42,996 bases of DNA from Candidatus Calescibacterium sp. (GTDB lineage: Bacteria; Calescibacteriota; Calescibacteriia; Calescibacteriales; Calescibacteriaceae). The DNA lies in NCBI GenBank assembly GCA_025060505.1, contig JANXBU010000016.1, positions 1 through 42,996 of the forward strand, written 5' to 3'. Of this stretch, positions 642-36,791 are shown piece after piece (within the stretch, counting starts at the first letter, position 1; the number at the start of each line of letters is the position of its first letter). The translations under genes and the position numbers were made by a program. Below the pieces are notes generated by a model. It saw nothing but the letters and a program-made list of their open reading frames with translations. It was not told the origin of the DNA and searched no databases.

Positions 642-1022
642 TCACTTCGCTCCTTTTGATTTTATGAGACTTGCAACTTTTGTAAGGAACTGATCTACCT
701 TTACGGGTTTAACGAAATACATATCTGCACCGGCTTCAAACGCCATCTGCATATCTTTTTCTCCAGCTTCTGTTGAGACCATAACCACAGGTGTGTCTTT
801 GTATTTTGCTGTTTTTCTGAGCCGTCTGACAAATGATATTCCATCTAATGAAGGCATATTTATGTCAACAACAAAAAGTTTTACATCATGTTCAAGTGAT
901 TTTTCAATTGCATCAAGTCCATCAACAGCTTCAACTGGTTGGAAGCCAAGTTTCGCAACCAAGTTAGACATAATTTTCCTTACTATCTCTGAATCGTCAA
1001 CAACAAGTGCTGCATCAGCCAT
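642..1022 (-). CDS. CheY-like single-domain response regulator
   Basis: This 126-residue protein is a stand-alone receiver domain of the CheY type that relays phosphoryl signals from a histidine kinase. The acidic pair is D9/D10, the phospho-acceptor D53 (VVDINMPSLDG), the switch S83/T84 and the conserved lysine K105 in VKP. There is no output domain, so it acts by protein-protein contact, for example with the flagellar switch or a pilus motor. No kinase or che gene is near, so the pathway is unknown. I chose the ATG at 1022 over one 27 bases upstream because the homology begins there and a TATATT hexamer lies 6 nt before it, inside the longer frame. Confidence 0.9.
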   Translation of the reverse strand: MADAALVVDDSEIVRKIMSNLVAKLGFQPVEAVDGLDAIEKSLEHDVKLFVVDINMPSLDGISFVRRLRKTAKYKDTPVVMVSTEAGEKDMQMAFEAGADMYFVKPVKVDQFLTKVASLIKSKGAK

Positions 1023-1028
1023 ACTGAT

Positions 1029-1034
1029 AATATA
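1029..1034 (-). promoter_or_regulatory. -10 hexamer for a leaderless response regulator mRNA
   Basis: TATATT on the minus strand occupies -12 to -7 relative to the ATG at 1022, so transcription would start at or beside the start codon. No Shine-Dalgarno sequence is present. Confidence 0.5.
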
Positions 1035-1086
1035 ATTTCGGAAAGACAAATTTTCGCTTTATTTCTAATATTTTCTAATAAATTTT

Positions 1087-1092
1087 TATATT
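1087..1092 (+). promoter_or_regulatory. -10 hexamer for a leaderless outer-membrane protein mRNA
   Basis: TATATT occupies -13 to -8 relative to the ATG at 1100 and is followed by six A and one C. No Shine-Dalgarno sequence is seen. Confidence 0.5.
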
Positions 1093-1099
1093 AAAAAAC

Positions 1100-2431
1100 A
1101 TGAGAAGAATAAAAATAGTTTGTTTTTTCTTCTTTGCGGTTTTGGTGAAAAATGCGTATTCTTATGATTTTTCGTTATCGGGCTATTTTCAGAATTTTGT
1201 GGTCTTCAAAACCGACAAAGATTTTGATCCATCGGAATCAATATATGAACCATGGGGTCAAACAGCCGGAGCAATAGGAACTTACACGGAGCCTAGGCTG
1301 AAATTTTCAATAGGGGAAACTATCATAGCTGCTGAGCCTCTGTTGGGATTCAATGTGTGGAGTAGAAATTCTCCGTTCTCACGTCCAGATCAGGAAGAAA
1401 GAAGCCAGCTGATATTTCTATTAAGACAACTTTATTCTGAAACAAAATTTTCATCGTTGAAAGTCAGAGCAGGATACCAGTATTTTGCAGATCCAATTGG
1501 TATTTTTCTTAGATTCTGGATTGGAGGAGCTAACTTCAAATTCGGGAATTTCAGATTATTTCTCGGACAAATTCCAGATCAAACATTCGAGGGACTCGAT
1601 ATATTCTCGAACAATTTCATAAATGATACATTTGTTCTATCATTTGATTTCATACAAAAAAGTAAAGAAGAAGATATAAATGTTCTTCCGATGGTTCAAT
1701 CTGGATTTTTTGCTGGAATATACAATGTTCTTGATAACTCTATTGTGAGGAAGCCACTTTTTGTATCCAATATTGTTGCTGGGTATGGGTATGACACAGA
1801 CGATTTGAATATAACAGCCGGTGTCGCACTACAAGGTGGTGTGAAAGCAAAGTCATCTCAGGATCTTAAAAGTGAAACAATTGTTGCTGGAGCGTTTGAA
1901 GTTTCTGCGGTAAGTAAGGGGCAATCACCCGTAGGTGGTGAGATAATGTTTCTTAGTCCAGACAATTCAAAATATAGAGATGGTATAAATACAGCTTTTC
2001 TTTATTCTGGAAAATCACTCAGCAGAACAATATTGCTTACAGAAGATGAAATAATATTCAAATCAGATAATCTTGATCTCAATGTTGGAGAAAAAGTATC
2101 AGTCTTTCAAAACATAAGACCAGGGTTCATTGTCGCAGATGTTTGGACTGAGCTGAGTTTGTCTGATTCATGGAAGATAACTCCACTGATTGGTGGAGCG
2201 TTTTCTCTTATTAAAGAAAATTCTTCAACAGATGACTCATTTTTATCAAACTTCTTCGGTCTTGAATTCACCCCGATAATATCTTATAGAAAAGATAACA
2301 TAATTTTTGACTTTGCTAATGTTTTTTTTGTACCGGGAGACGCTTCGCTGACATTCTTGAATTCAATTAATCCATATGAAAAAAGAACATTTATATGGAG
2401 TGTTGATCTTTCTCTAAGGATAGTTTTCTAG
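1100..2431 (+). CDS. putative outer-membrane beta-barrel protein
   Basis: The 443-residue product starts with a signal peptide (MRRIKIV, a hydrophobic core, probable cleavage after NAYS near residue 22). The rest is rich in alternating polar/hydrophobic segments with many aromatic residues, and the final strand ends in a hydrophobic residue (LSLRIVF), a pattern of outer-membrane barrels that ends with a C-terminal F. A porin or alginate-export-like barrel is plausible, but I do not recognise the family. It is transcribed away from the response regulator with 77 bp between the start codons. Confidence 0.6.
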   Translation: MRRIKIVCFFFFAVLVKNAYSYDFSLSGYFQNFVVFKTDKDFDPSESIYEPWGQTAGAIGTYTEPRLKFSIGETIIAAEPLLGFNVWSRNSPFSRPDQEERSQLIFLLRQLYSETKFSSLKVRAGYQYFADPIGIFLRFWIGGANFKFGNFRLFLGQIPDQTFEGLDIFSNNFINDTFVLSFDFIQKSKEEDINVLPMVQSGFFAGIYNVLDNSIVRKPLFVSNIVAGYGYDTDDLNITAGVALQGGVKAKSSQDLKSETIVAGAFEVSAVSKGQSPVGGEIMFLSPDNSKYRDGINTAFLYSGKSLSRTILLTEDEIIFKSDNLDLNVGEKVSVFQNIRPGFIVADVWTELSLSDSWKITPLIGGAFSLIKENSSTDDSFLSNFFGLEFTPIISYRKDNIIFDFANVFFVPGDASLTFLNSINPYEKRTFIWSVDLSLRIVF

Positions 2432-2539
2432 TTTGATTAGCTGGTGGAAGAATATAATATTCAGAAACTAACTCAAAAAAATTGATATAAGTCCTACAAT
2501 TTAGACGAAATGATTCTATGCTTTTTTAATCTTTCAATT

Positions 2540-3514
2540 TTACATATATATCCTCCAAAGACCGGCATCTTGGGCATATTTTACAGCCTGTTTGTATTCT
2601 TCATAAGTTATTCTGCGCGTGAGTTCTGGGTAATTCCTTGGCTTCTGTTCAACGAGTCCCGCTGGGTAGTATTGATCCATTATGTTTACAAATGTATCTT
2701 TTGATATTTCATTGGAAATGTATTCCATTATTTTTTTTGTATCTTCAAGACATCCGGGCATAACAAGATGTCTCAAAATTATACCTCGTAGAGCCAGACC
2801 ATTTTCATCAACTACAAGATCACCAACTTGCTGATGCATAATTTTGACGATCTTCTTTGCTACATCAGGGTAATCTCTGACACCAAGATATCTCCACGAT
2901 TTTTCTGGATTCCATAGTTTGAAATCTGGCATGTATATATCTACAACATCTTTCATGATCTCCAATGACTCTTCTGAGTCGTATGAGCTTGTGTTATAAA
3001 CTATTGGGATTCTCAGACCCATCTGGACGGCGTAGTAAATTGATTCTATAACCTGTGGGACAACATGTTCTGGTGTGACAAAGTTTATGTTGTGGCATCC
3101 TATTTCTTGTAGTTTTATCATAATTTGTGCTATCTCCTTTGCAGTAAGTTCAAGGCTCTCTTCTGCTTTCCAAGATATACTGAAGTTCTGACAGAAGACG
3201 CATCTGAGGTTGCAGTATGCAAAGAATATGGTTCCCGAGCCTCGCCATCCTCGAAGCGGTCTTTCTTCTCCAAAATGAGGAAATGCACTTGAAACAAGAG
3301 CGTATCTCCCAACTCTGCAAACTCCAACTTTTTTGTATCTATCTACTCCACAGTTTCTGGGACATATACGGCAGTCTTTCAATGATTCAAGGGCTCTATC
3401 TACTTTCTCTTTTAATCTCCAGAGTCCGTTTTCAATGAGCTTTAAGTAAGCTGGGACGAAGTCTTTTCTATGAACAACAAAATTTTTTTCGGGCTCTGTT
3501 TTGAAATTCCTCAT
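2540..3514 (-). CDS. radical SAM protein of the COG1313 (PflX/PflA-like) family
   Basis: The 324-residue protein has the radical SAM CxxxCxxC motif as CNLRCVFC (C101, C105, C108), which would bind a [4Fe-4S] cluster and S-adenosylmethionine. An N-terminal four-cysteine segment (C48, C51, C55, C66, CRICPRNCGVDR...GVC) is typical of the COG1313 proteins annotated as pyruvate formate-lyase activating enzyme homologues. No glycyl radical enzyme or AmmeMemoRadiSam partner is near, so the substrate is unknown. Length and motifs look intact. It is divergent from purN; a TATTTT hexamer sits at -12 to -7 of the ATG. Confidence 0.85.
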   Translation of the reverse strand: MRNFKTEPEKNFVVHRKDFVPAYLKLIENGLWRLKEKVDRALESLKDCRICPRNCGVDRYKKVGVCRVGRYALVSSAFPHFGEERPLRGWRGSGTIFFAYCNLRCVFCQNFSISWKAEESLELTAKEIAQIMIKLQEIGCHNINFVTPEHVVPQVIESIYYAVQMGLRIPIVYNTSSYDSEESLEIMKDVVDIYMPDFKLWNPEKSWRYLGVRDYPDVAKKIVKIMHQQVGDLVVDENGLALRGIILRHLVMPGCLEDTKKIMEYISNEISKDTFVNIMDQYYPAGLVEQKPRNYPELTRRITYEEYKQAVKYAQDAGLWRIYM

Positions 3515-3561
3515 ATATAAAAAATAGTAATTTTTGTGTCCAAGGTTTTATCCTTTAAACT

Positions 3562-3567
3562 TATCGT
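3562..3567 (+). promoter_or_regulatory. -10 hexamer supporting the purN start
   Basis: TATCGT occupies -13 to -8 relative to the ATG at 3575, the start at which PurN homology begins. Confidence 0.35.
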
Positions 3568-3574
3568 TTGTGAT

Positions 3575-4222
3575 ATGAAGCACAAGATTGTGGTATTCGC
3601 ATCTGGTAGCGGTTCAAACTTCGAAAACATAGTTTTGAAGTCAAAAGAAAATTATATTCCAGCAGAGGTATCTTGTCTGGTAACAGACAAAGCTGGAGCA
3701 GGTGCTATTAAGAGAGCGATCAGGTATGGAGTAAAAGTCGTAGTTGTAAACTGGAAACCGAGATATTTAGGTGAAAAAAATGCACTTTGTGTTTTGGAGA
3801 AAGAAAATCCATCACTTGTTGTATTCGCTGGATTTATGAAAGTTGTTTCCCCAGAATTTGTTTCACATTGGAGAGGAAAGATTTTGAATATTCATCCGGC
3901 TTTGCTCCCAGCTTTTGAGGGAACGACAAACGCTATAGAACTTTCTGTAGAAAAAAGAGTTAGGATTGCCGGTTGCACGGTTCATTTTGTAGATGAATCG
4001 GTTGATGGCGGACCTATTATAGCACAAGCTGCTACCTTAATAGATCCAGATGAGGAAATCGAGAAAATAGAACAAAAAATCCATTCGCTTGAGCATAAAA
4101 TTTATCCTGCTGTTATAAAAGGAATTCTTGAAGGAAAAATAATTTTTGATCAACAGAATAACAGAGTTATATTCAAGGATAATAAAATGCAACTTTCTTC
4201 TATATTTTCAATTGAGATCTAA
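3575..4222 (+). CDS. purN: phosphoribosylglycinamide formyltransferase
   Basis: PurN transfers a formyl group from 10-formyltetrahydrofolate to GAR in cytoplasmic purine synthesis. Counting from the ATG at 3575, the catalytic set is N105 and H107 (NIHPALLP) and D144 (VDESVDGGPI), matching E. coli N106/H108/D144. The N-terminal FASGSGSNFE is the phosphate-binding loop. Length is 215 residues, close to the family norm. An in-frame TTG-type start 39 bases upstream exists, but conservation begins at MKHKIVVF. No other pur gene is in the window. It converges with the next minus-strand gene, with only 22 bp between stops. Confidence 0.93.
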   Translation: MKHKIVVFASGSGSNFENIVLKSKENYIPAEVSCLVTDKAGAGAIKRAIRYGVKVVVVNWKPRYLGEKNALCVLEKENPSLVVFAGFMKVVSPEFVSHWRGKILNIHPALLPAFEGTTNAIELSVEKRVRIAGCTVHFVDESVDGGPIIAQAATLIDPDEEIEKIEQKIHSLEHKIYPAVIKGILEGKIIFDQQNNRVIFKDNKMQLSSIFSIEI

Positions 4223-4244
4223 GGGTACCTATAAGTTTTGCGTT

Positions 4245-5087: not shown

Positions 5088-5270
5088 AGGAACAAAACAA
5101 TGGAATATTTTTCAATGACCAAATAAACATATAAATTATTTACGGAAATTGTGCCTATTGGATAAAGTAGATATTAACTTTATATCTTGTGTTTCATGCT
5201 GTTTTTTTAATTTGCTATGGTTTTGTGGCAGATCAAGAATAAGGGAGGAAAATACGATTTTTTGAAAATT

Positions 5271-6277: not shown

Positions 6278-6295
6278 TTTACATCTCCAAGACAT

Positions 6296-6336
6296 GATTA
6301 GTGCAGTTAAAAGAATACTTGCTCTAATCTTTTTTC
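6296..6336 (+). terminator. rho-independent terminator overlapping the convergent gene's stop
   Basis: GATTAG at 6296-6301 pairs with CTAATC at 6324-6329, with a further GCA/TGC inner stem, and is followed by seven T (6330-6336). It would end the periplasmic/PilP-like operon and physically overlaps the stop codon and last codons of the minus-strand cysteine synthase gene. Confidence 0.55.
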
Positions 6337-9798: not shown

Positions 9799-10008
9799 TT
9801 ATCCTCCTGATATAGCGTTTACAATTTTTATCTCATCACCTGCTTTTACAGTTTGATTCTCGTCTAATATTTCGCCATTTCTCACAGCAAACGCATACTC
9901 TCCAGAAAGATTCAGTTTCTTCAAAATTTCCTTTACTTTCATTTTTTCTTCTTCAAATTCAATCTTTTTACCGCGATACAAAACATAAATCTTTTCTTTA
10001 ACTTGCAC
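9799..10008 (-). CDS. ttuB: TtuB-like ubiquitin-fold sulfur carrier (ThiS/MoaD family)
   Basis: The 69-residue protein has the beta-grasp pattern of ThiS/MoaD/TtuB and ends in GG (NAISGG), the terminus that is adenylated and thiocarboxylated. Its place directly before ttuA points to TtuB. ThiS for thiamine, or a CysO-like carrier for the nearby cysteine synthase, remain possible since some lineages use one carrier for several acceptors. It starts with GTG at 10008; TATATT at -13 to -8 suggests a leaderless message. No E1-like activating enzyme is in the window. Confidence 0.75.
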   Translation of the reverse strand: MQVKEKIYVLYRGKKIEFEEEKMKVKEILKKLNLSGEYAFAVRNGEILDENQTVKAGDEIKIVNAISGG

Positions 10009-10015: not shown

Positions 10016-10021
10016 AATATA
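10016..10021 (-). promoter_or_regulatory. -10 hexamer for a leaderless ttuB mRNA
   Basis: TATATT on the minus strand lies at -13 to -8 of the GTG start at 10008; the spacer to the divergent cdsA start is only 52 bp. Confidence 0.5.
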
Positions 10022-12271: not shown

Positions 12272-13003
12272 CTATATTCTTAACACTCTTGCTTTTTTGG
12301 GAGCTTGAACCTGCATAACTTCACCGGAAACCTTCACAACATAAAGACCTGATCTCAAAGCGAATGTATCTGCACCTCTTCCGTAGCTTATCCCTGCTAT
12401 AATCCCATACAGATTCCTCCCCCTATACCTCTCACCAAAAAAAGAGAATTCTTTCATATCAACGAGAAGTTCTTTGACATCTTTGGAAATCACATGAGTT
12501 TTCGCTGAGACCATAAAAACTGAATCTTTATCACAAACAACAATCAGATCATATTCTTTGTTTTTTCCGTTTTTAGAGAATTTGGCTCTTTGATAAATTT
12601 CAAGAATCCTGAAATCATGCTCTTTCAGAAATTTCATAACAGAGGGTTCAACCATCCCTTCTATAAATCTTCCCCATCCATCTGTTATGCCCTTAATAGA
12701 CTCCTTGAAAAGCCTTAGTTCCTCCGATGTTTTTCTGTTCTCTTCTGAGAGTTTAGAGATAGCCAATCTGTTTTCTTCTGCTGTTCTTTTATTTTCTTCT
12801 GAGAGTTTAGCGATAGCCAATCTATTTTCTTCCGAGAGTCTTTCAATAGCTAACCTATTTTCCTCAGCTGTTTTTTTGTTTTCTTCAGCGAGCTTAGCAA
12901 TAGCTTCCTCAATCTTCTGAAATCTTATCTCCCAAGCCTCCCTTTTTCTCCTCTGAATCTTACTTTTCACACCTTCTAAATTAATCACATCAATCTCAAA
13001 CAC
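12272..13003 (-). CDS. coiled-coil protein with DUF3782/PD-(D/E)XK-like domain, copy 1
   Basis: The 243-residue protein has a short Arg/Lys-rich N terminus, a long charged coiled coil (about residues 28-90) built of AEENRLAIxxL (11) and xEENKxT (7) units, and a C-terminal alpha/beta domain. In the latter, EYDLIVV and MVSAKT occupy the positions of the D and (D/E)xK motifs of PD-(D/E)XK nucleases; a Ser replaces the usual Glu, so activity is uncertain. The family looks like DUF3782-type proteins, common in several copies in thermophiles; function unknown. Start is GTG at 13003. A near-identical copy lies at 39.2-39.9 kb. Confidence 0.75.
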   Translation of the reverse strand: MFEIDVINLEGVKSKIQRRKREAWEIRFQKIEEAIAKLAEENKKTAEENRLAIERLSEENRLAIAKLSEENKRTAEENRLAISKLSEENRKTSEELRLFKESIKGITDGWGRFIEGMVEPSVMKFLKEHDFRILEIYQRAKFSKNGKNKEYDLIVVCDKDSVFMVSAKTHVISKDVKELLVDMKEFSFFGERYRGRNLYGIIAGISYGRGADTFALRSGLYVVKVSGEVMQVQAPKKARVLRI

Positions 13004-16227: not shown

Positions 16228-16884
16228 TTACTTCACAACTCCTCCGCCAAGAATTTCTCCTTTGAATAACCAGACTTTGACTCCATTTGTTCCCCATTTT
16301 GTTTTAGCTACTGCAAATCCATAGTCTATGTCTGCTCTTATTGTTTGGAGTGGGAGTCTTCCTTGAAGTATCCATTCTGCTCTTGCCAGTTCAACTCCTC
16401 CGAGCCGTCCTTCACAATTTATCTTTATTCCTTTTGCTCCTGCTCTTATTGCAGCTGCAATAGCCCTTTTCATAGCCGGTCTGTGTGGTATTCTTTTTTC
16501 CATCTGGCTTGCAAGGTTCTCTGCTATAAGCTGAGCGGATATTTCTGGATTCTTTATCTCTGTAAGGTCTATACCTATGTTTTCTTTTGGCTTACCGGTA
16601 ATCTTGGAGACATAATCTCTTATTCTCTCTAAGCCGGAAGCTTTCTTCCCTATTATTATGCCCACCTTTGCACAGTGTATCTCTATATGTACACGCTCAA
16701 ATAATCTTTTAATTATTATTTTTTCTATAGCTGCGGCGTAGAACCTCTTTTTTATCCAATCTCTTATCTTTATATCTTCTATAAGAAATTTGGAGTAATC
16801 TTTTTTTGATGAGGGTATCCAAACAGATTGCCAACTTTTTGTAACTCCGAGCCTAAATCCAACAGGATGAGTCTTCTGTCCCAT
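16228..16884 (-). CDS. rpsC: 30S ribosomal protein S3
   Basis: S3 sits in the head of the small subunit at the mRNA entry. From the ATG at 16884 the protein has 218 residues: MGQKTHPVGFRLG, a KH motif (VGIIIGKKASGLE) and the C-terminal RLPLQTIRADIDYG region, all canonical. The same frame stays open for 75 more Lys/Arg-rich codons to 17109, overlapping the divergent gene; TATAAA at -13 to -8 of the 16884 ATG supports the short form. Neither rplV nor rplP is adjacent, so the gene has been removed from the S10 operon. Confidence 0.95.
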   Translation of the reverse strand: MGQKTHPVGFRLGVTKSWQSVWIPSSKKDYSKFLIEDIKIRDWIKKRFYAAAIEKIIIKRLFERVHIEIHCAKVGIIIGKKASGLERIRDYVSKITGKPKENIGIDLTEIKNPEISAQLIAENLASQMEKRIPHRPAMKRAIAAAIRAGAKGIKINCEGRLGGVELARAEWILQGRLPLQTIRADIDYGFAVAKTKWGTNGVKVWLFKGEILGGGVVK

Positions 16885-16891
16885 ATCTTTG

Positions 16892-16897
16892 TTTATA
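16892..16897 (-). promoter_or_regulatory. -10 hexamer for a leaderless rpsC mRNA
   Basis: TATAAA on the minus strand occupies -13 to -8 relative to the rpsC ATG at 16884; no Shine-Dalgarno sequence is seen. Confidence 0.45.
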
Positions 16898-16961
16898 CTC
16901 TCTTTTTCCCTTGCTTTTGCTTTTTTCAAAACTTTTTGCTGATTTGTAACCTTTTTACCTG

Positions 16962-18236
16962 ATGAGTCCAGAATTTTATATCTTCGTTTTTTCCGGAATT
17001 CGGGGTGCTCTGGAAACTTTTGCCTCTCAGACAGAATATAGGGGAGAATTTTTTTTCGCAAAATTTTGGTTTCTCTCTTTTTTGTTTGCATCTGATCTTT
17101 ATTTGTCAAGAAAGTTTAAAATTTTTTCTCCACAGATCTTCTTTTTTCCTGTTGCGATCTTTTCTATATCTCCTTTTGTTGATCGTTACTTCTTTTTCAG
17201 AGAGTTTGATAACGGAATGGGGTTTCAATCTTTCATTCGCTCAATTTTATCTTTCTTTGTCCTATCAAACGGAATTCCAAAGTTAAGTTTGATTATGTTT
17301 TTTGCGGTAAGAGCCTTTCTCATAGTATATCTAGTTTTTTCAAGGAAATTCAATTTTATTGTTCCATATACTTTTTGGTTTCTTATATCTTATCTTCTAT
17401 GGCATCTGTTCCATTTGCAGGTCTTATACGGTAAGCTTTCTCCACTTTTTTTTGTAGGATTTGAACCTAAAACTGTATTTATAATAAGTGGATACATTTA
17501 TTTTCTGCTTCTGAGTTTGATATATTTTAGAAAATGGATTGAAGGTTTCATTGTTTCTGAGGTAAAAAATCTTTCAATATTTTATATTTTTCTGATAGCT
17601 ATGCTCGGTTATATTTCTGGGGAATTCGGTGTTCTCTCTAAAATTGTGATACCTTTTACTGCGGTTTTGGGTTTCAGAATGGTTGAGATATTAGTTTGGA
17701 GGACGAGAGAAAAAATTTTATCTCATAAATACAATTTGAATTTGTTTGAGGTAATTGAATTATCATTTTTAGTTTCTCTTTTTGGTGCATCAAGGGGTAT
17801 ATTTACTATGTTTTTACCTTTTGTTGTTCTTTTTATGTTTTTCTATTATGTCCCACCGCTTGAATTAGGTAAGGGTATATGGGGAGCTTTCCTTTCTTCT
17901 GCGTTTTTCTTTCTTATGTGTATAATTTCTCATTTATCTCTGAAAAACAGTTTCTTTATAACATCTGAGGGTATTTTGGTTGGAACAGCATGCGCAATCT
18001 TTGCGTTTTTTGAGAATCTTTCAAGAAAGTTTGAGGGTCTGAGGAGAAAGATATTTGCTTTTGCAACCTCGGTTTCACCATTGATTTTTATGCACTCGCC
18101 TGAGGATATAGGAGTTGCACTTATATTTGGAATAGCTTCTTTCAGGTTTGATTCGTCAGCAATCCCGAGAATTATTTCTGCTATCTATTTCGTTTCCAAA
18201 TTCTACTATCTCAAATATATGCAATACCAGGTGTGA
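16962..18236 (+). CDS. polytopic membrane protein of unknown function
   Basis: The 424-residue product is very hydrophobic and Phe-rich, with at least ten probable membrane helices and short charged loops. I see no signature of a known transporter or polymerase family. The start is uncertain: the ATG at 16962 gives the longest form, and the first 40 residues are less hydrophobic than the rest. It lies 146 bp upstream of fliO on the same strand, which may be chance. Confidence 0.55.
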   Translation: MSPEFYIFVFSGIRGALETFASQTEYRGEFFFAKFWFLSFLFASDLYLSRKFKIFSPQIFFFPVAIFSISPFVDRYFFFREFDNGMGFQSFIRSILSFFVLSNGIPKLSLIMFFAVRAFLIVYLVFSRKFNFIVPYTFWFLISYLLWHLFHLQVLYGKLSPLFFVGFEPKTVFIISGYIYFLLLSLIYFRKWIEGFIVSEVKNLSIFYIFLIAMLGYISGEFGVLSKIVIPFTAVLGFRMVEILVWRTREKILSHKYNLNLFEVIELSFLVSLFGASRGIFTMFLPFVVLFMFFYYVPPLELGKGIWGAFLSSAFFFLMCIISHLSLKNSFFITSEGILVGTACAIFAFFENLSRKFEGLRRKIFAFATSVSPLIFMHSPEDIGVALIFGIASFRFDSSAIPRIISAIYFVSKFYYLKYMQYQV

Positions 18237-18346: not shown

Positions 18347-18375
18347 TTGCGTGAACGAGGAAGGTAAAGTAAAAT
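18347..18375 (+). promoter_or_regulatory. promoter of fliO, leaderless
   Basis: TTGCGT at 18347-18352 and TAAAAT at 18370-18375 are 17 bp apart, a sigma-70-type spacing. TAAAAT lies at -13 to -8 of the ATG at 18383, so the transcript would begin at the start codon. Confidence 0.55.
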
Positions 18376-18382: not shown

Positions 18383-18652
18383 ATGGAGTTTGGAGAATTT
18401 TTTATAAAGTTATTCGCATCTGCTGGAATACTTTCTGGGCTGATGTTTGGAATAGTTTGGTATATGCGTAAGAAGGGTTTTATTCCTAATGTCAGTTCGC
18501 AATCATCTGGTATGAAGATAATATCTTCTGTCAGGCTTACTCCGAAATCATATCTTTTCACAGTTAGCATAGGGGAAAAAAGGAGTATAGTTGTTGGTGT
18601 TACAGATAAATCTGTTTCGTTTATATGTGAGATTCAAAATGAAAAGAGCTGA
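18383..18652 (+). CDS. fliO: FliO-like flagellar export apparatus protein
   Basis: FliO is a small membrane protein that helps assemble the FliPQR export gate of the flagellar basal body. The 89-residue product has one N-terminal membrane helix (about 8-27), a basic stretch (RKKG) and a small beta domain in which KIISSVRLTPKSYLFTVSIG and IVVGVTDKSVSFI match the FliO pattern 'l.pk..l.vv.vg....llgv....v..l'. Usually it lies between fliN and fliP; here it stands alone. An unrelated SH3-like membrane protein is an alternative. Confidence 0.7.
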   Translation: MEFGEFFIKLFASAGILSGLMFGIVWYMRKKGFIPNVSSQSSGMKIISSVRLTPKSYLFTVSIGEKRSIVVGVTDKSVSFICEIQNEKS

Positions 18653-19851: not shown

Positions 19852-20360
19852 TTTGTTGAATCAATTCAAGAAAAAAGAAGCAAATTAATAAATAAGTTTT
19901 ACGAAATTGGATTCAAATTCATAAATACACGGTCAGAATCTTTTGCTTCGCTACAATCACAAAAACCTTGTCTTACATGGTCTCCCAGTTTCCCTTAAAC
20001 CTTATATTATTCGTCTATCGCGAGACAGAAAACTAAGAATCAGTTTCCAAAAAAACCTTAACTTTTTTATATAAATTCTGTTTTCTGCAATCATCTTTCT
20101 TTGAAATTTTCAGGCAATATATTCTTCCCCAGAGACTATCCGGTTTCTGCGAAAGAGCAATCAAATCTCAAAGGAACTTAATTGATCTATCAAAAAATCA
20201 TATTCAGTTATGAGGTAAGATAACAGAAAGATACAAGAAGCTTTCAAAATTCTTGTCAATTCCTTAACACAACGCAGAGCACTTAACGAGATTACGAATA
20301 AAACAAAGTTGAAATCAGAAATACCCCCAACATAATCAAGAAATAAATACTATCTAAATT
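19852..20360. other. 509-bp intergenic region, no gene seen
   Basis: All six frames are short and lack coding character. A small inverted repeat GTCT-6-AGAC occurs near 20022. The end of the region carries the probable promoter of the next gene (TACTAT at 20348). It separates the Rpn gene from the glycan cluster and may be a decayed gene or a transfer boundary. Confidence 0.5.
20348..20353 (+). promoter_or_regulatory. -10 hexamer for a leaderless methyltransferase mRNA
   Basis: TACTAT occupies -13 to -8 relative to the ATG at 20361. Confidence 0.5.
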
Positions 20361-21083
20361 ATGAAAAAAGGATGGATATATTCAGAGAATGAAATTCACA
20401 GAAACTGGTTTGAAAAACTAAAAAGAGGCGATAAAAAGATTGAAGGAAGAGACTGGTACTTTCTCATATACGAGAAAAAAATGAATTTGATTATGAGCAT
20501 CTTGAAGGAACTCCGCGACAAAAAGATTCTTGATGCTGGTTGTGGTGAGGGAGTTTTAGTTGAAGAATTCAGATCAATAGGATATGACATAGAAGGTTTA
20601 GATCCAAACTATGAAAGTGATTTTGTAAGGAACGGAGATATAACATCAACAGATTATCCAAATAATCACTTTGATGTTGTTCTTCTGCTTGATGTCCTTG
20701 AACATATACCCTATAATATGCAATATAAAGCTCTTGAAGAAATAAAGAGAATATTGAAACCTGATGGGATGTTTATAATAAGTTTTCCGAACGTTGCAAA
20801 CCTTTCATCGCGCATAAAATTTGCTCTAATTGGAGAGCTTTCTAGAACAGATAAAGATTACAATCACCTTGGAGAAAGAACATATAAAGAAATAAAGAGA
20901 ATCCTTGAATCTTATCGATTTAGCATACAGAAAATATACTCCATTACACCGACAATACCTGTTGTATGGCAACTTATAACTCTTTTTCCAGATAGAATGC
21001 GAAAAATACACGATCTGATAAACCTTATAAAAATTCCTGATATATCTTTGATCACGATATTCATCTGCAAAAACATCAAGTAG
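20361..21083 (+). CDS. class I SAM-dependent methyltransferase
   Basis: The 240-residue protein has the class I motifs: motif I ILDAGCGEGVLVEEF (about 56-70), acidic residue in GLDPNYE, and post-I VVLLLDVLEHIPYNM, with RILKPDGMFIISFPN. It belongs to the Methyltransf_11/UbiG-like group often found in polysaccharide loci, where it may methylate sugars or lipid-linked glycans. Its stop abuts the stop of the convergent glycosyltransferase with no base between them. Confidence 0.85.
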   Translation: MKKGWIYSENEIHRNWFEKLKRGDKKIEGRDWYFLIYEKKMNLIMSILKELRDKKILDAGCGEGVLVEEFRSIGYDIEGLDPNYESDFVRNGDITSTDYPNNHFDVVLLLDVLEHIPYNMQYKALEEIKRILKPDGMFIISFPNVANLSSRIKFALIGELSRTDKDYNHLGERTYKEIKRILESYRFSIQKIYSITPTIPVVWQLITLFPDRMRKIHDLINLIKIPDISLITIFICKNIK

Positions 21084-24323: not shown

Positions 24324-24908
24324 TCACCTTATCAAAGAAAAAATTCTATCAGCTCTTATTTTTCCTGCTGAATAATCTATTGAGAAGTATATGATAAATG
24401 CCTTCCCCTTCACACTCTCTTTTGGGACAAAACCCCAGAATCTTGAATCATTTGATTCATCTCTGTTATCACCGAGAACGAAAATGTGACCTTTCGGGAC
24501 ACGCTCAGGTCCCCAGTTATCTCTTGAAGGATATATATTGTTATCTGAAAAAAATCCCCACTTGTCTTCTATCTGCTGACCGTTTATGTACACTTTCTTG
24601 TTTCTTATTTCAACTTCTTCACCCTCAAGAGCTATTACTCTTTTTATAAAGTCTTTTGATTTGTCGTTTGGAAATTCAAAAACAACAACATCGCCGCGTT
24701 GTATATCACTCCACTTTACAATATAACCAAAGTAGGGGAGCCTTATTCCATAAGATAACCTGTTCAAAATTATATGGTCTCCTACAAGAAGTGTTGGAAC
24801 CATAGAACCCGTTGGAATCTTATACGCTTGAATTAGAAATGTTCTGACAAATAAAGCAAGAATTACAGCAATTGCTACGTCTCTTAGAATTACTTTGAAC
24901 TTGTTCAT
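24324..24908 (-). CDS. lepB: signal peptidase I
   Basis: Signal peptidase I removes signal peptides from exported proteins on the outer face of the inner membrane. The 194-residue protein has one N-terminal membrane helix, the nucleophile S35 in PTGSMVPTL, the general base K89 in FIKRVIA and the box GDNRDESNDSR near 145-155. Complete for a short-form Gram-negative/thermophile LepB. TAACTT at -14 to -9 of the ATG suggests a leaderless message. Confidence 0.95.
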   Translation of the reverse strand: MNKFKVILRDVAIAVILALFVRTFLIQAYKIPTGSMVPTLLVGDHIILNRLSYGIRLPYFGYIVKWSDIQRGDVVVFEFPNDKSKDFIKRVIALEGEEVEIRNKKVYINGQQIEDKWGFFSDNNIYPSRDNWGPERVPKGHIFVLGDNRDESNDSRFWGFVPKESVKGKAFIIYFSIDYSAGKIRADRIFSLIR

Positions 24909-24916: not shown

Positions 24917-24922
24917 AAGTTA
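24917..24922 (-). promoter_or_regulatory. -10 hexamer for lepB
   Basis: TAACTT on the minus strand occupies -14 to -9 relative to the lepB ATG at 24908. Confidence 0.4.
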
Positions 24923-26914: not shown

Positions 26915-26920
26915 TAAGAT
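26915..26920 (+). promoter_or_regulatory. -10 hexamer for a leaderless cupin mRNA
   Basis: TAAGAT occupies -13 to -8 relative to the ATG at 26928. Confidence 0.5.
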
Positions 26921-26927: not shown

Positions 26928-27419
26928 ATGATAGTCCAGAAAAACGACCAGTGGGAGATAATCGATATAGGCAATATGTCGGAACTATCGAACAAAAAAT
27001 TCGATTCCGTTTTTGCTGTGACGAAAGGTAAGATATTTCTTGGGGACTATATGAATCTAAAATCGATGGATGTATCTATAAATTCCCTGAAACCTGGATA
27101 CACAAACCCTTATCTTCATGTCCATGTAAATCACGAGGAGGTCTACATTTTCTTAAAAGGCAAGGGACAGATGATGCTTGATGATAAAATTATTGAGGTA
27201 AAATCAGGATATGTGGTCAGAGTGGAACCAAAAGTAAAAAGAGGTGTCAGGAATCCAGAGAATTCTGATGAGGAACTGTGGTTTATATGTGTTAGGGCTG
27301 AGCAACCTTTCAACAGGTTCGATGCACCGGGCGCCGGACCCGTTATGGGTGTTGAGGATTGGTCATATGACAAGTTAGTCGAAAAAGCAAAAGCGAAAAA
27401 AGAATCGTTGAAAAAATAG
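26928..27419 (+). CDS. cupin-domain protein
   Basis: The 163-residue protein has a cupin fold with the first metal motif HVHVNHEEVYIFLKG (H..H....E) near 63-77 and a second motif region VRVEPKVKRGVRNPEN. The second conserved His is replaced by Arg or Asn around 104-107, so metal binding by both motifs is not certain. A C-terminal tail contains PFNRFDAPGAGPVMGVEDW. Function unknown. It lies 7 bp before the acyl-CoA dehydrogenase-like gene and is probably co-transcribed with it. Confidence 0.75.
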   Translation: MIVQKNDQWEIIDIGNMSELSNKKFDSVFAVTKGKIFLGDYMNLKSMDVSINSLKPGYTNPYLHVHVNHEEVYIFLKGKGQMMLDDKIIEVKSGYVVRVEPKVKRGVRNPENSDEELWFICVRAEQPFNRFDAPGAGPVMGVEDWSYDKLVEKAKAKKESLKK

Positions 27420-27426
27420 AAAAACA

Positions 27427-29340: not shown

Positions 29341-29799
29341 TTATTTATTAGATTTGAGAGATTCCCTGTGTTTCAGATGCTCTCGGAACATACATTTATC
29401 TTGAACAAAAACTATTCCGTTTTCTTCAGCGATTTTTTTCGCTTCATCATTGACTATACCTTCCTGCAACCAGATAACCTTTACATCTTTTCTTTGTTTT
29501 TTTCTCTCAACAGCTTCCTTCACAACTTCTAATGCTTGCTCAGGTCTTCTGAAAACATCAACTATATCTATTTGATCTGGTACATCCAGAAGTGATTTAT
29601 AGGATTTCAGCCCCATAATTTCATCCTTCGTTGGATTTACTGGTATCACTTTATATCCCTGCTCCATAAGGTATTTTGGAACCCTGTTTGATGGTTTTGT
29701 TGGGTCTGCGCTCATACCAACTACCGCAACAGACTTGTTTTCAGCAAGAATGTTTAAAATCTTCCTATCCTCATCTGTTAGATTTTGTGCTTCGTTCAC
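29341..29799 (-). CDS. CoA-binding domain protein (YccU-like)
   Basis: The 152-residue protein has the CoA-binding Rossmann domain: SVAVVGMSADPTKPSNRVPKYL, PVNPTKDEIMGLKSYKSL, VDVFRRPEQ and VIWLQEGIVNDEA. It resembles the stand-alone CoA-binding proteins of the YccU type; the physiological role is unknown. I set the start at GTG 29799. The longer frame reads through the tRNA-His gene and is artefactual. The GTG follows the tRNA CCA by only 9 nt, so they are very probably on one transcript. Confidence 0.85.
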   Translation of the reverse strand: MNEAQNLTDEDRKILNILAENKSVAVVGMSADPTKPSNRVPKYLMEQGYKVIPVNPTKDEIMGLKSYKSLLDVPDQIDIVDVFRRPEQALEVVKEAVERKKQRKDVKVIWLQEGIVNDEAKKIAEENGIVFVQDKCMFREHLKHRESLKSNK

Positions 29800-29808
29800 T
29801 TTTACATA

Positions 29809-29886
29809 TGGGGTGGGTGACGGGACTCGAACCCGCAACCCTGGGAGCCACAGTCCCATGCTCCACCAAGTTGAGCTACACCCACC
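29809..29886 (-). tRNA. tRNA-His (GTG anticodon)
   Basis: The minus strand folds as a cloverleaf with acceptor GTGGGTG/CACCCAC, a T arm ending in GGTTCGAGTCC and anticodon loop CTGTGGC. An extra 5' G faces discriminator C, the hallmark of tRNA-His, and CCA (29811-29809) appears encoded. A TATAAA at 29901-29906 (minus strand) can serve as its -10. Confidence 0.95.
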
Positions 29887-30157
29887 ATCTTTCATTTAAA
29901 TTTATAATAAATCTCCTCTCAATCATAAATTGCTGGTTTTTATAAGAATAGATAATGTGAAACTGATTCAAATAATCTAAAGCCAACTCAAAATACTTCG
30001 TTCCAAACACAGTCTGCAATATGTTTGAAGTTCCGCTTCGCCTCAATCAAGAGATTCTCTTTACGATCTTTGAGTATCAAGTGACAGATCAACAATTCTA
30101 AATACTTACTAAAAAATGAGAAAAATTCAGAAAGACTCCAAGAAATATCGGAAAACT
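29887..30157. other. 271-bp intergenic region
   Basis: Upstream of tRNA-His it holds the probable -10 TATAAA (29901-29906). The rest separates this from the downstream end of cdaA and shows no gene. Confidence 0.4.
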
Positions 30158-30910: not shown

Positions 30911-30911
30911 A

Positions 30912-32378
30912 CTAAACAGAAAACAAGTCTTCAACCTTTATGTCTTTAACTTCTTCCGCTATGCTATCACCGAACAATTTTTCAATATCCAATTTTTTCT
31001 CCGGCTGAACAACTTTTATTGATATATTTTTACCGGTCTGACGTCTTATATGCTCCTCTATTTCTCTTTTGATTTCTGTCATAATCTTATTTTGTAGCTT
31101 CTGATCATCAATTTTTATCACGAGAGTATTTTGAGAAATCTCCCATTCTGAATTTCTTATTTTTTCAAGTGTAACATAGTTACCTGTGAGCTCAAAGTAT
31201 TCAAGAAGTGCCTGAAACGGATCTACCGAATCATCTTTTTTATTCTGGTCTCTATTCTTAATGATATCCTGTATCTCCTCCAATATTTTGCTCAAAGGTT
31301 TTATTTTTTTGAGATAGCATATTTTCAAAAAGAAAAGCTTTACAGCAACTTCCTCGGAAAGAGAAAATTTCAGATCATCTTCAAACTTGAGAACTGAATT
31401 AGCTATGTAAATTGCTTGCTCAAGTGTCACACCCGTTTCTTTTACAATATCAATCAGCTCTTCAGAAATTTTAGCTGAGAAATCAAGATAAAGACAAATA
31501 TCTTTTATACCCTCCGCAAATGATCTGCATATCCTTTTTATGTTGTATCCCTTCTCTATTATTCCATCTATTATTTCATTTACTTTTTGAGCATCACCAA
31601 GTATTGAGTACTTTATAAGTTTGTTTATAGATGAAGAAGGAGCTATTCCAAATATCTCTTCAACATCTTGTTGTGAAATTTTCTCCCTTCCGGAGAACAT
31701 CCATATAGACTCTAAAATAGATATCGCGTCTCTCATTGAGCCCTGAGACTCTTCGGCTATTGTATTCAGAGCTTGTTCATCGTATTGTATTCCTTCATTC
31801 TCACATATATTTTTCAGTCTACCTACTATCTCTCTTTTTGGTATTCTTTCGAAATCAATTTTTATCGCTCTTGAGTGAACAGTTTCTGGGATTTTGTGTG
31901 GTTCAGTTGTAGCAAGTATAAATATATCAAACTCGGGAGGTTCTTCAAAAATTTTAAGAAGCGCGTTGAATGCAGATTGAGATAGCATATGCGCTTCATC
32001 TATTATAAATACTTTGTACCTTCCTTTGATCGGTGGATACAGAGCCATTTCTTTTATAGTTCTTATATCATCAACAGATGTTTGACTTCCTGCATCCATT
32101 TCTATGACATCTACAAAGCTACCCTTAGAAATGGCAATACAGTTTTCACATCTGTCGCACGGATCTGGGGTCGGTCCAGATAAGCAGTTCAGAGCTTTTG
32201 CAAAGATCCTCGCTGCGCTTGTTTTTCCGGTTCCTCTAACTCCACTGAAAATATATGCATGATGTATAAGTTTGGTAGAAATTGAATTTTGGAGGATCTT
32301 TCTTGGGACATCTTGTCCGAACATATCTTCAAATTTCTGCGGACGATATTTTCTGGCAAGCGAGATGTATTTTTCCAT
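30912..32378 (-). CDS. dnaX: DNA polymerase III subunits gamma/tau
   Basis: DnaX is the clamp-loader ATPase. From the ATG at 32378 it has 488 residues: Walker A GVRGTGKTS near 47, the zinc site with CLSGPTPDPCDRCENC, Walker B IIDEAH, and EEPPE. The DNA-polymerase-contacting tau part follows domain III. At L356-K357-K358 an A7 run (minus strand, 31304-31310) precedes TAA if one A is lost, giving a 358-residue gamma-like form. The frame continues upstream through the tRNA-Ser gene, but that is artefactual. Confidence 0.95.
   Translation of the reverse strand: MEKYISLARKYRPQKFEDMFGQDVPRKILQNSISTKLIHHAYIFSGVRGTGKTSAARIFAKALNCLSGPTPDPCDRCENCIAISKGSFVDVIEMDAGSQTSVDDIRTIKEMALYPPIKGRYKVFIIDEAHMLSQSAFNALLKIFEEPPEFDIFILATTEPHKIPETVHSRAIKIDFERIPKREIVGRLKNICENEGIQYDEQALNTIAEESQGSMRDAISILESIWMFSGREKISQQDVEEIFGIAPSSSINKLIKYSILGDAQKVNEIIDGIIEKGYNIKRICRSFAEGIKDICLYLDFSAKISEELIDIVKETGVTLEQAIYIANSVLKFEDDLKFSLSEEVAVKLFFLKICYLKKIKPLSKILEEIQDIIKNRDQNKKDDSVDPFQALLEYFELTGNYVTLEKIRNSEWEISQNTLVIKIDDQKLQNKIMTEIKREIEEHIRRQTGKNISIKVVQPEKKLDIEKLFGDSIAEEVKDIKVEDLFSV
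31304..31310 (-). other. A7 slippage site in dnaX
   Basis: Codons CTC AAA AAA ATA AAA contain seven A. Deletion of one A by polymerase slippage, or a +1 ribosomal shift, gives CTC AAA AAA TAA and stops at residue 358, at the end of clamp-loader domain III. Confidence 0.4.
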
Positions 32379-32387
32379 AGTCCTATG

Positions 32388-32474
32388 CGGAGAGGGTGGG
32401 ATTTGAACCCACGCGGGAGATAAACCCCCAACGGATTTCGAGTCCGCCCCGTTCGTCCACTCCGGCACCTCTCC
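32388..32474 (-). tRNA. tRNA-Ser (CGA anticodon)
   Basis: The minus strand folds with acceptor GGAGAGG/CCTCTCC, anticodon stem GCGGA/TCCGT with loop CTCGAAA, a long variable arm (GTTGGGGGTTTATCTCCCGC region) and T arm GGTTCAAATCC. The long variable arm fits tRNA-Ser. CCA is not encoded. The dnaX ATG begins 9 nt beyond its 3' end. Confidence 0.95.
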
Positions 32475-33669: not shown

Positions 33670-33909
33670 AATTAATTGTACAATACTCAACTGGATTGTA
33701 AAAATTCTTTCAAATCTTTAGATATTTTACGACTTTTAGCTGATTTGTTGGAATCATGAAAAAACATCCTAAGACAAGCTTTAAATATCCAACGTAGCAT
33801 ACTGTACCTTTCCAACAGAACAAAAAATTTTGGATTCAAATGGATTGTCAACTCAATAGAGAACAAGTATATGTTTGAGTATGGTTCTCAGTTTTAAATT
33901 CAATTTCAA
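33670..33909. other. 240-bp intergenic region
   Basis: Between rfbA start and rpsH stop, both on the minus strand. It shows no gene and no clear terminator for rpsH; rplF, which normally follows rpsH, is missing. Confidence 0.5.
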
Positions 33910-34320
33910 TCACCATATTTTGGCTATAGCCTCTCCTCCGACTTTTAAGAGTTTTGCTTTGTTGCTGCTCATTATACCCTTTGAAGTCGAAAGTATCAAT
34001 GTACCTGTTCCACCGTAAACTTGCGGTATTTCATCAACTTTTAAATATATTCTTCTTCCCGGTTTCGATATAACTTGAATTCCTCTTATGACAGAAATTT
34101 TTTGCTTAGGCTCTGGATAAAAGTATTTCAGGTGTATCTTGATTTTTCCACCCTTCTGATCTGGTGATATTTCGTAGTCAGATATAAATCCCTCCTCTTT
34201 CATAACCGATGCTATTTGGATCTTTATTCTTGAAGCTGGAATCTCTACCGTATCTTTTCTAACAGCAATTGCATTTCTTATTCTTGTAAAGAAATCTGCT
34301 ATCGTACTTGTTGTTCCCAT
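33910..34320 (-). CDS. rpsH: 30S ribosomal protein S8
   Basis: S8 binds the central domain of 16S rRNA early in small-subunit assembly. From the ATG at 34320 it has 136 residues, starting GTTSTIADFFTRIRNA with the conserved C-terminal STSKGIMSSNKAKLLKVGGE. GGGAGGT lies 8 bases before the ATG and sets the start. It follows rpsN by 14 bp, keeping spc order, but rplF does not follow. Confidence 0.95.
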   Translation of the reverse strand: MGTTSTIADFFTRIRNAIAVRKDTVEIPASRIKIQIASVMKEEGFISDYEISPDQKGGKIKIHLKYFYPEPKQKISVIRGIQVISKPGRRIYLKVDEIPQVYGGTGTLILSTSKGIMSSNKAKLLKVGGEAIAKIW

Positions 34321-34328
34321 GGATTTAG

Positions 34329-34335
34329 ACCTCCC
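34329..34335 (-). promoter_or_regulatory. Shine-Dalgarno site of rpsH
   Basis: GGGAGGT on the minus strand precedes the rpsH ATG and touches the rpsN stop codon, coupling the two genes. Confidence 0.8.
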
Positions 34336-34520
34336 TACCAAGAAGCTTTTCTAACACCTGGAATTTGTCCTTCTAAGGCAAGCTCCCTAAAGCACATTCT
34401 ACATAGACCGAAAAATCTTATAAAACCTCTTGGCCTTCCACATCTACGGCATCTGTTTCTATATCTGGTTCTGAACTTAGGTTTCTCATAAATCTTGACT
34501 CTATCCCTTGTTGTTGGCAT
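34335..34520 (-). CDS. rpsN: 30S ribosomal protein S14, zinc type
   Basis: The 61-residue S14 is the short zinc-binding form, with two CxxC pairs (CRRC and CRMC) and the [16 protein letters not shown] and [12 protein letters not shown] core. S14 sits in the 30S head. AAAGGA lies just before the ATG at 34520. In most bacteria rplE lies upstream and rplF after rpsH in the spc operon; neither is here. Confidence 0.95.
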
Positions 34521-34525
34521 ACTAT

Positions 34526-34531
34526 TCCTTT
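34526..34531 (-). promoter_or_regulatory. Shine-Dalgarno site of rpsN
   Basis: AAAGGA on the minus strand five bases before the rpsN ATG. Confidence 0.6.
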
Positions 34532-34669
34532 GTAGTCGAAAAAGTTCAGAAATTGTGTTTTTCAGTTTATTTTTTATATGTTGGATTTCTCTCTATTTGG
34601 AATACCTACTAAAACCCCTTTCTTGAAACACATACTATAAATTTTCTCCAAAAAGTATTTTCTTATTAT

Positions 34670-34675
34670 TAAATT
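34670..34675 (+). promoter_or_regulatory. -10 hexamer for a leaderless hydrolase mRNA
   Basis: TAAATT occupies -13 to -8 relative to the ATG at 34683. Confidence 0.5.
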
Positions 34676-34682
34676 TTGTAAA

Positions 34683-35510
34683 ATGATTCAGAAAATAAAG
34701 GTAAACGGAATCTCACTTGCAGTAAGAATAGAAGGAGAAAACAAAAAAGGTGACATTATGCTTATTCACTGTCTTGGGCTTTCCCACAGAGTCTTTGAAG
34801 AGCAAATAAAGTTTCTATCACAGAATGGGTTCAGAGTAATAGCTCCGGATGTGCGATGTCATGGAGATTCTGAAAAAGTAGATAAAGAGGTGACTATGTG
34901 GGATCTGACAGATGATATTTTTGGCTTGGTTGACAAGTTAGGAATAAAAAGACTTTTTTGTCTTGGAGGAATATCTATGGGTGGAATGATTTCAATGCGC
35001 ATGATGCTCAGAAGACCAGATATAGCACAGAAACTCATACTTATGGGAACATCGGCAGATTATGACCCATACAAGGAAAGATACACTCCTATAATAGAAG
35101 ATATGATGAAAATATATAAAACAGGAGATACCGATAAAATCAAACAGGCTTTTCGCAACTCTGCTGAATTTATAGTGAGAATATGTTTCTCACAGAAATA
35201 CCTTGAGATTGGAGATAACTTTGAAAAATGGGTTTCAGAGTCGCTCAAAGGAATGAGTCTTGGTGCTCTCTATGTTTCTCAGGCAGTAATAATGCGAGAT
35301 AGTATACTTAACAATATAAAAAACATAAATGTTCCCACTCTTATTTTAGCAGGATCTGGTGATATTGCTGTTCCTGTTTCTGAATCAGAGAAAATTGCAA
35401 GAGAAATTAAAGGTAGCAAGCTTGTTATATTTGATTCGGCCCCTCATATTTTTCCACCGGAGATACCAGAAAAAACAAACAAAGAAATTGAAAACTTTTT
35501 ATCCGTATGA
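34683..35510 (+). CDS. alpha/beta-fold hydrolase
   Basis: The 275-residue protein is an alpha/beta hydrolase: the oxyanion region HCLGLSHRVFEEQ, PDVRCHGDSEK, nucleophile elbow GISMGGM with Ser near 100, LILAGSGDIAVP holding the acid and the histidine in SAPHIFPPE. It resembles 3-oxoadipate enol-lactonase/2-hydroxy-muconate hydrolase types, but no partner genes for aromatic degradation are present and the substrate is unknown. Confidence 0.8.
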   Translation: MIQKIKVNGISLAVRIEGENKKGDIMLIHCLGLSHRVFEEQIKFLSQNGFRVIAPDVRCHGDSEKVDKEVTMWDLTDDIFGLVDKLGIKRLFCLGGISMGGMISMRMMLRRPDIAQKLILMGTSADYDPYKERYTPIIEDMMKIYKTGDTDKIKQAFRNSAEFIVRICFSQKYLEIGDNFEKWVSESLKGMSLGALYVSQAVIMRDSILNNIKNINVPTLILAGSGDIAVPVSESEKIAREIKGSKLVIFDSAPHIFPPEIPEKTNKEIENFLSV

Positions 35511-35596
35511 TTGTTGGAAAAACTCATAAAAAATAAAAACTTTTCCAACCTCTCTCCATCTGATTGATTATTTTCACAATTTTTCCCGTTTATGAT

Positions 35597-35602
35597 TAAA
35601 TT
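35597..35602 (+). promoter_or_regulatory. -10 hexamer supporting the TPR protein start
   Basis: TAAATT occupies -13 to -8 relative to the ATG at 35610. A TTCACA-like -35 lies 18 bp further upstream. The hexamer is inside a longer frame from 35592. Confidence 0.5.
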
Positions 35603-35609
35603 TAATACA

Positions 35610-36791
35610 ATGGCTTGCTTCAAAAAAAATACTTACTTCAAACATATACTTTTTTTTGTTGTTCTATATCACCTTATTTTGATTGGATGTGCTAAAAAAG
35701 CTCCTGTGAAAGAAACACGTCCGCTTACTGAGGAAGAAAAAGAGAAACTTATGCAAGAAAAGATAGAAGTTGTTAAAAAGGCAGAGAAACTCAAATTTGA
35801 GGAAGCAAAAGCCAATCTTGTTCCGGATCCTTACATAATGTTCGGTTTAGCTCTGAACAAAGAGAAAGCCGGAGAACTTGAAGAAGCATCGAAGTTTTAC
35901 TCCTATGCAATAGAACTCAAACCAGATATGACTGATGCCTGGGTTAACCTCGCTGAGGTGAGATGGAAAATGGGATACAAAGAAGATAGAATTAAAATAC
36001 TTGAAGAATCTCTTAAAATAGTTCCAGATGATCCCAAAGTTTGGGGGGCATTAGCAATAGCTTATTCAGACATAGGAGATAATCAAAAGGCAGAACAGGT
36101 TCTCAAAAGAGCTATAAACTCAATAGGGATGAAAAAGGAAGTTGCACAATCTCTGGGGTATGTTTTCTTCCGATCAAAAAGATACAGCTTAGCTCTATTT
36201 GTTTTCTCCGAGCTTCTCTCAAAGCATCCAGACGATCCACAAATATACTTTATTATGGGGGATATATATATGAAAATAAAAAACTATCTGAAAGCAAAGG
36301 ATCTTTTTGAAAGAGGGCTTTCCATCAAAGAAGATAAGATCATTTGGAACAAGCTTGGTCTATGTCACTTTGAAATTGGGGCGATAGAAGATGCTAAATC
36401 TGCATTTGAAAAAGCAATAGCCATAGATAAGGATTTCTGGCCAGCCTATATGAATCTTGGCTTGATATACAAAAGAAAAAGCGACTTTGAAAATTCCGCA
36501 AAGATGTATCACAGAGCCTTGGAACTGAAAGGAGATAATCCAGACATCATCTACAATCTTGCAAATTTATACGAAACATATGCTTCCTACACAAGAGCTA
36601 CACCTCAGAAAGCACTTGAAAACATAGAAAAAGCAAAAGAATACCTTGTTATGTATGTTCAGTATCTGGAAAGCGACCAAGATAGACAATCAATACAAAG
36701 GCGAATAGATAAATTGAAAAAGTCGGAAGAAGAAATAAAGAAACAGCTTGAGAAAGAATTGAAGAAACTTGAAAAGCAACAGAAGAAATAA
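35610..36791 (+). CDS. TPR-repeat lipoprotein
   Basis: From the ATG at 35610 the 393-residue protein has a lipoprotein signal with lipobox LILIGC, an E/K-rich linker and at least seven TPR units (for example AIELKPDMTDAWVNLAEV, PAYMNLGLIYKRKSDFENSA). It ends in a basic/acidic coiled-coil tail (about 365-393). TPR lipoproteins of this kind act as assembly scaffolds, for example PilF-type pilotins, but no partner is nearby. A longer start at 35592 is less supported. Confidence 0.75.
   Translation: MACFKKNTYFKHILFFVVLYHLILIGCAKKAPVKETRPLTEEEKEKLMQEKIEVVKKAEKLKFEEAKANLVPDPYIMFGLALNKEKAGELEEASKFYSYAIELKPDMTDAWVNLAEVRWKMGYKEDRIKILEESLKIVPDDPKVWGALAIAYSDIGDNQKAEQVLKRAINSIGMKKEVAQSLGYVFFRSKRYSLALFVFSELLSKHPDDPQIYFIMGDIYMKIKNYLKAKDLFERGLSIKEDKIIWNKLGLCHFEIGAIEDAKSAFEKAIAIDKDFWPAYMNLGLIYKRKSDFENSAKMYHRALELKGDNPDIIYNLANLYETYASYTRATPQKALENIEKAKEYLVMYVQYLESDQDRQSIQRRIDKLKKSEEEIKKQLEKELKKLEKQQKK

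Follow-up and report, generated by a model that had tools for sequence, protein, structure and literature searches.

Does a TANNNT hexamer that stands just before the start codon of gene after gene serve as a promoter -10 element, giving mRNAs that begin at or almost at the start codon, or does it have another origin? The question is raised by a contig of 42,996 nt, here called the window, which is one entire contig of a Calescibacterium draft genome (2.28 Mb, 86% complete, G+C 35%) and in which a sequence-only reading had described -10-like hexamers exactly 7 nt before the starts of nine genes, taking them for a widespread signal of leaderless transcription.

Leaderless genes are well known in bacteria. 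In Deinococcus-Thermus and other bacteria, such genes have a TANNNT -10 element some 6-7 nt upstream of the ORF and exist beside a Shine-Dalgarno (SD) class (PMC3160421, Zheng 2011; PMC12340547, Zhong 2025), making up nearly one third of the genes of D. radiodurans (PMC3160421; PMC12340547). GeneMarkS-2 assigns 21.6% of surveyed bacterial species to a leaderless-type class, and the accessible text of that report does not name the present lineage among them (PMC9581028).

The phylum is represented by five genomes, all of a single family, and the next nearest genomes that we compared have only the domain in common with it; among named genomes, the UvrB matches reach no more than 56% identity. 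Our analysis covers 1.23 Mb of the window's own genome and 1.09 Mb of G002, a relative that belongs to a different genus within the family (79% identity in UvrB; median identity of reciprocal best hits, 60.6%), the remaining three genomes being sampled by only about 40 genes, too few for judgement.

Hexamers before the genes of the window

On the forward strand, TATATT (1087..1092) stands 7 nt before the ATG of an outer-membrane-type protein gene (OMP, 1100..2431), TATCGT (3562..3567) before that of purN (3575..4222; Pfam Formyl_trans_N, 3.8e-49), TAAAAT (18370..18375) before that of fliO (18383..18652; Pfam FliO, 3.6e-11), TACTAT (20348..20353) before that of a methyltransferase gene (20361..21083), and TAAGAT (26915..26920) before that of a cupin gene (26928..27419), while TAAATT occupies the same place before the ATGs of an alpha/beta hydrolase gene (hexamer, 34670..34675; gene, 34683..35510) and a TPR lipoprotein gene (35597..35602; 35610..36791). 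On the reverse strand, the 7-nt distance separates TATATT (10016..10021) from the GTG of a ThiS-family, TtuB-like gene (ttuB, 9799..10008; Pfam ThiS, 1.3e-9) and TATAAA (16892..16897) from the ATG of rpsC (16228..16884). Eight of the nine hexamers are thus TANNNT, the ninth, that of rpsC, being -10-like without matching the pattern. The two genes reported to deviate by one base do so, with TATATT (1029..1034) 6 nt before the ATG of a response regulator gene (642..1022) and TAACTT (24917..24922) 8 nt before that of lepB (24324..24908), both on the reverse strand. None of the nine listed genes has an SD site at SD distance.

Chance had been guessed to supply about two such matches among about 35 genes; recomputed, the expectation is about 1.5 in about 42 genes at 3.5% per site, against which the eight observed have a Poisson probability of about 2e-4. 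A G+C content of 35% does make TANNNT common, and the hexamer had been used to choose some of the starts, so that AT-rich composition and hexamer-guided start choice together could be proposed as the whole explanation. We called genes with a custom gene finder that relies on coding bias only and is blind to upstream sequence, and it selected the same start in six of the nine cases (OMP, purN, methyltransferase, cupin, hydrolase and TPR lipoprotein). It missed ttuB and fliO, short genes that are real by their Pfam matches, and the N-terminus of rpsC, MGQKTHP, is as in relatives. The starts are therefore not merely hexamer-chosen. Upstream of rpsC (16885-17115, reverse strand) the frame stays open for 77 more lysine-rich codons before the conserved MGQK start, compared with 1-7 codons in two relatives. 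The longest frames of two genes (29341-29895 and 30912-32468, reverse strand) run into tRNA-His (29809-29885) and tRNA-Ser (32387-32474), so that a naive start choice overlaps tRNAs at both places.

Upstream sequences of the window genes were scored with a promoter matrix trained on G002. The 45 nt preceding the OMP hexamer (1042..1086, forward strand), which carry a phased A/T pattern, gave the top score among the strict TANNNT genes listed above (3.36), and purN (-3.05) and the response regulator scored poorly. The predicted promoters of the OMP, hydrolase, TPR lipoprotein and methyltransferase genes are accordingly better supported than those of purN or the response regulator, all such single-gene calls being predictions.

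Genome-wide enrichment and its inner limit

A genome-wide logo had been proposed as a check, with a peak expected at -13 to -8; it was run, and the peak appeared both in the window's own genome and in the second genus. We defined a transcript-leading gene as one with a divergent neighbour or lying at least 60 nt from the previous gene, and give offsets for the first base of the hexamer. Among the 716 transcript-leading genes of the own genome, TANNNT was counted 45, 64, 76, 52 and 28 times at -15, -14, -13, -12 and -11, respectively, versus 25 expected, with p = 4e-16 at -13 and no excess at -11 (p = 0.33), an abrupt stop. In G002 the corresponding counts were 40, 30, 43, 56 and 34 versus 21 expected, peaking at -12, and an earlier gene set of the own genome had TANNNT at -13 in 67 of 642 genes versus about 23 at neighbouring offsets. 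The distance claimed as fixed is thus, genome-wide, a mode at -13 within a range of -15 to -12. The hexamer is also more frequent in the window than on average in the genome, where about 10% of genes have it at exactly -13.

Over a chance rate of about 3.5% per upstream position, the excess among transcript-leading genes amounts to about 21.8% (95% CI, 17-26%) in the own genome and 20.2% in G002, rising to 32% and 26%, respectively, when only the 89 orthologue pairs whose N-termini match are counted. A hexamer lies at -16 to -12 in about 35% of transcript-leading genes, about half of them by chance, so single genes are not callable with confidence.

When every gapped three-letter pattern was scanned de novo, TA...T at -13 ranked second, level with the GAG of the SD site (-12). 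TANNNT showed no excess before in-gene ATG codons and no peak upstream of starts in an E. coli control, and it was depleted in a pooled Clostridia control. Composition and start choice, which we regard as having practically no chance of explaining the pattern, are refuted by this genome-wide test, given the enrichment at starts called blind, its absence at in-gene ATGs and in the pooled Clostridia, and a hexamer state shared between genera (see below). The middle of the hexamer is A-rich here (TAAANT), and T occupies -1 in 77% of genes with a hexamer at -12 versus 42% of operon-internal genes; T at -1 fits, as expected, a pyrimidine(-1)/purine(+1) initiator, T(-1)A(+1).

The inner limit has a simple geometric counterpart: with a 6-nt discriminator, -11 is where the RNA start would first fall inside the start codon. 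When a matrix built from one genome was tested on the other, sites at -16 to -12 scored far above sites in 3' intergenic DNA (p = 3e-33 and 1e-35), the score dropping abruptly at -11 and fading beyond -16. These profiles bear on whether the hexamers could belong to promoters with short leaders of 3-15 nt instead of true leaderless starts. Enrichment at -14 and -15, together with the 6-8 nt that is normal for discriminators, places some starts 1-3 nt before the codon; short leaders as the rule should, however, peak farther upstream, where both score and counts fade past -16, and would not be cut off at -11. We consider them very unlikely as the general explanation, and favour starts at or nearly at the codon.

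Phased A/T runs in place of a -35 box

When the sites are aligned on the hexamer, runs of A appear around -36, -25 and -18 and runs of T around -32, -24 and -14, with a period of 10.5 bp (Rayleigh p = 7e-10 for T in the own genome and 7e-10 for A in G002). The phase is alike in both genomes, with A peaking at 3.7 and 4.3 and T at 7.5 and 8.6 (modulo 10.5; own genome and G002, respectively). The pattern is limited to -45 to -15 from the hexamer (p = 1e-14 for A and 3e-9 for T), and is absent at -75 to -45. Control TANNNT sites within coding sequence and in 3' intergenic DNA lack it, and those farther upstream of genes show it weakly or not at all. It is locked to the hexamer at each of the offsets -15, -14, -13 and -12 taken singly.

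No classic -35 box accompanies the hexamers: TTG is not in excess at -25 to -21 from them (39 versus 46 expected), and a search for TTGACA-like boxes upstream of them found none. TTG is raised genome-wide at -33 to -30 from hexamers (57 versus 37), about 8 bp upstream of the place of a -35 box and outside the normal spacer range, where it may belong to the phased pattern or mark a site for the alpha-CTD. Nor is there an extended -10 (TGN), since TG at -3 occurs 18 times against a mean of 17.9, with a slight excess at -4 (29). We also considered a sigma factor without region 4.2 as the cause, which is unsupported, the RpoD-like protein keeping TRERVRQIE and a normal region 4.2 helix.

Transcript-leading and operon-internal genes

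The hexamer excess in operon-internal genes is only 9% in the own genome and 4% in G002, below the 21% and 18%, respectively, that the same comparison gives for transcript-leading genes. SD sites are distributed the other way, in 14% of transcript-leading versus 27% of operon-internal genes. Since the hexamer and the SD site occupy the same bases, their genome-wide mutual exclusion is partly mechanical. The 3' end of 16S rRNA retains GGATCACCTCCTTT, an intact anti-SD, so SD initiation operates too.

Ribosomal protein genes follow the division in part: SD sites precede the inner genes rpsM, rpsK, rpsD and rplN, TANNNT is found at -13 before the free-standing rplP and secY (as well as rpsN in G002), and TATAAA lies close to that position before rpsC and rpsS. 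At the same site in two relatives, G002 and G004, rpsC has an SD site and lies inside an rpsS-rplV-rpsC operon. The S10-spc-alpha superoperon is fragmented in the own genome (window, 16228-16884 and 33910-34559; contigs C27, C38, C49 and C82), its pieces being rpsC; rpsN-rpsH; rpoA-rplQ; rplP; rpmJ-rpsM-rpsK-rpsD-rpsQ-rplN-rplX-rplE; rpsS; rplF; rplR-rpsE; and secY, and G002 still keeps rpsS-rplV-rpsC together.

The division also bears on a translational origin of the signal, in which the hexamer would be an AT-rich, non-SD ribosome-binding element, as in Bacteroidota, on normally leadered mRNAs. Its position near that usual for SD sites would suit such an element, as would the low SD usage, the 14% of transcript-leading genes lying below the 39-53% of the E. 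coli and Clostridia controls. Operon-internal genes, however, need translation signals equally and show the hexamer weakly; the 10.5-bp pattern locked to it 15-45 bp upstream has no known role in translation; and the sharp stop at -11 is what is needed for the AUG to stay in the transcript. We judge this explanation very unlikely and retain the promoter reading.

Conservation between genera

Orthologues in the own genome and G002 tend to have the hexamer state in common (42 pairs with TANNNT in both; odds ratio, 3.6; p = 1.4e-5), the odds ratio reaching 5.2 for transcript-leading pairs. Orthologous hexamers are seldom at the identical offset, and a strict, small set of orthologue-certified starts (83 genes) shows little positional conservation.

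Discussion

Promoter-like behaviour of the hexamers, namely the bias to transcript-leading genes, the phase-locked upstream pattern, the stop at -11 and the sharing between orthologues, makes leaderless transcription the best reading. We hold it highly probable, from sequence evidence, that they are -10 elements of phased, -35-less promoters giving leaderless or nearly leaderless mRNAs. The signal is widespread, as had been claimed, in that it recurs genome-wide; SD sites are in use as well, and the leaderless genes probably form a minority, between about a fifth and a third of the genes that lead a transcript, their hexamers being spread over about 4 nt.

From this arrangement we infer a mechanism in which the hexamers would act as -10 elements of the main sigma-70-type promoters, RNA synthesis beginning on the A of the start codon or 1-3 nt upstream of it. 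With a mode of -13 in the own genome and of -12 in G002 and Deinococcus, leaders of 1-3 nt are as compatible with the data as none. Upstream, A/T runs every 10.5 bp from about -45 to -15 would take the place of the -35 hexamer; the DNA there is probably curved or narrow in its minor groove, with sigma region 4 and/or the alpha-CTD making the contact. If the mRNAs are leaderless or nearly so, initiation must proceed without an SD site, presumably through 70S ribosomes or through recognition of the start codon alone, and operon-internal genes would use SD sites.

The likeness to Deinococcus that had been suggested holds up, the D. radiodurans megaplasmid MP1 having a TANNNT peak at -12. As in Deinococcus-Thermus, TANNNT precedes the ORF and a separate SD class exists, the hexamer class here comprising from about one fifth to one third of transcript-leading genes; unlike in that group, the G+C content is low, the mode lies one base farther upstream (-13), the hexamer tends to TAAANT, no -35 box is present, A/T runs are phased and the phylum is another. 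The mixture of leaderless and SD genes also resembles the leaderless-type genomes of GeneMarkS-2. In Campylobacter jejuni, according to PMC3656092 (citing Petersen 2003), periodic A/T replaces the -35 box of sigma-70 promoters and the -10 is extended (TGxTATAAT), leaderless genes going unmentioned in that paper; the lack of a -35 consensus and an A/T period near 10-11 bp upstream of the -10 are common to both, whereas here the TGN extension is missing and the -10 abuts the ORF. Synechocystis has helically phased A-tracts aligned with the -10 and TSS genome-wide (PMC9825172), a phasing comparable to ours in its alignment with the -10 element, although overall A-tract periodicity is strong there and the accessible part of the report describes no leaderless class, while here the phasing is local to -45 to -15.

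In a literature search with most subscription papers outside its reach, we found, judging by title and abstract, no apparent description of leaderless genes combined with A-tract promoters. The present data add the lineage, the phasing of the A/T runs and the sharpness of the inner limit; the joining of leaderless -10 placement with phased A/T runs is apparently new, though the evidence for novelty is weak. Leaderless initiation would thereby extend to a lineage represented by five genomes, with a promoter design, read from DNA alone, that unites two separately known features, leaderless -10 placement and phased A/T replacing the -35 box. A gene finder that looks for SD sites will get many starts wrong in these genomes, and the -11 cut-off together with the phased pattern offers a way to test for leaderless promoters without RNA, applicable in general to uncultured lineages with AT-rich DNA. 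As a tentative scenario, with the balance somewhat against it, this small phylum could have taken up a phased-A/T promoter replacing the -35 box, its -10 abutting the start codon, with leaders lost and SD sites kept mainly inside operons, alongside the break-up of the superoperon into separately promoted pieces.

The window also holds a near-identical gene pair (12272-13003 and 39179-39856, reverse strand) with coiled-coil repeats (EENRLAI...) and DNA 93-97% alike, whose homology begins about 15 nt upstream of the GTG and does not extend past the stop codon, one copy lacking a repeat unit; no copy was found in the 1.09 Mb of G002 DNA covered. The own genome encodes flagellar genes and cytochrome oxidase subunit III, which, like its G+C content of 35% and a phylum made up of one family, would be compatible with Candidatus Calescibacteriota, and the G+C content of its 16S rRNA (contig C115, 65551-67088; 58.5%) suggests at most moderate thermophily.
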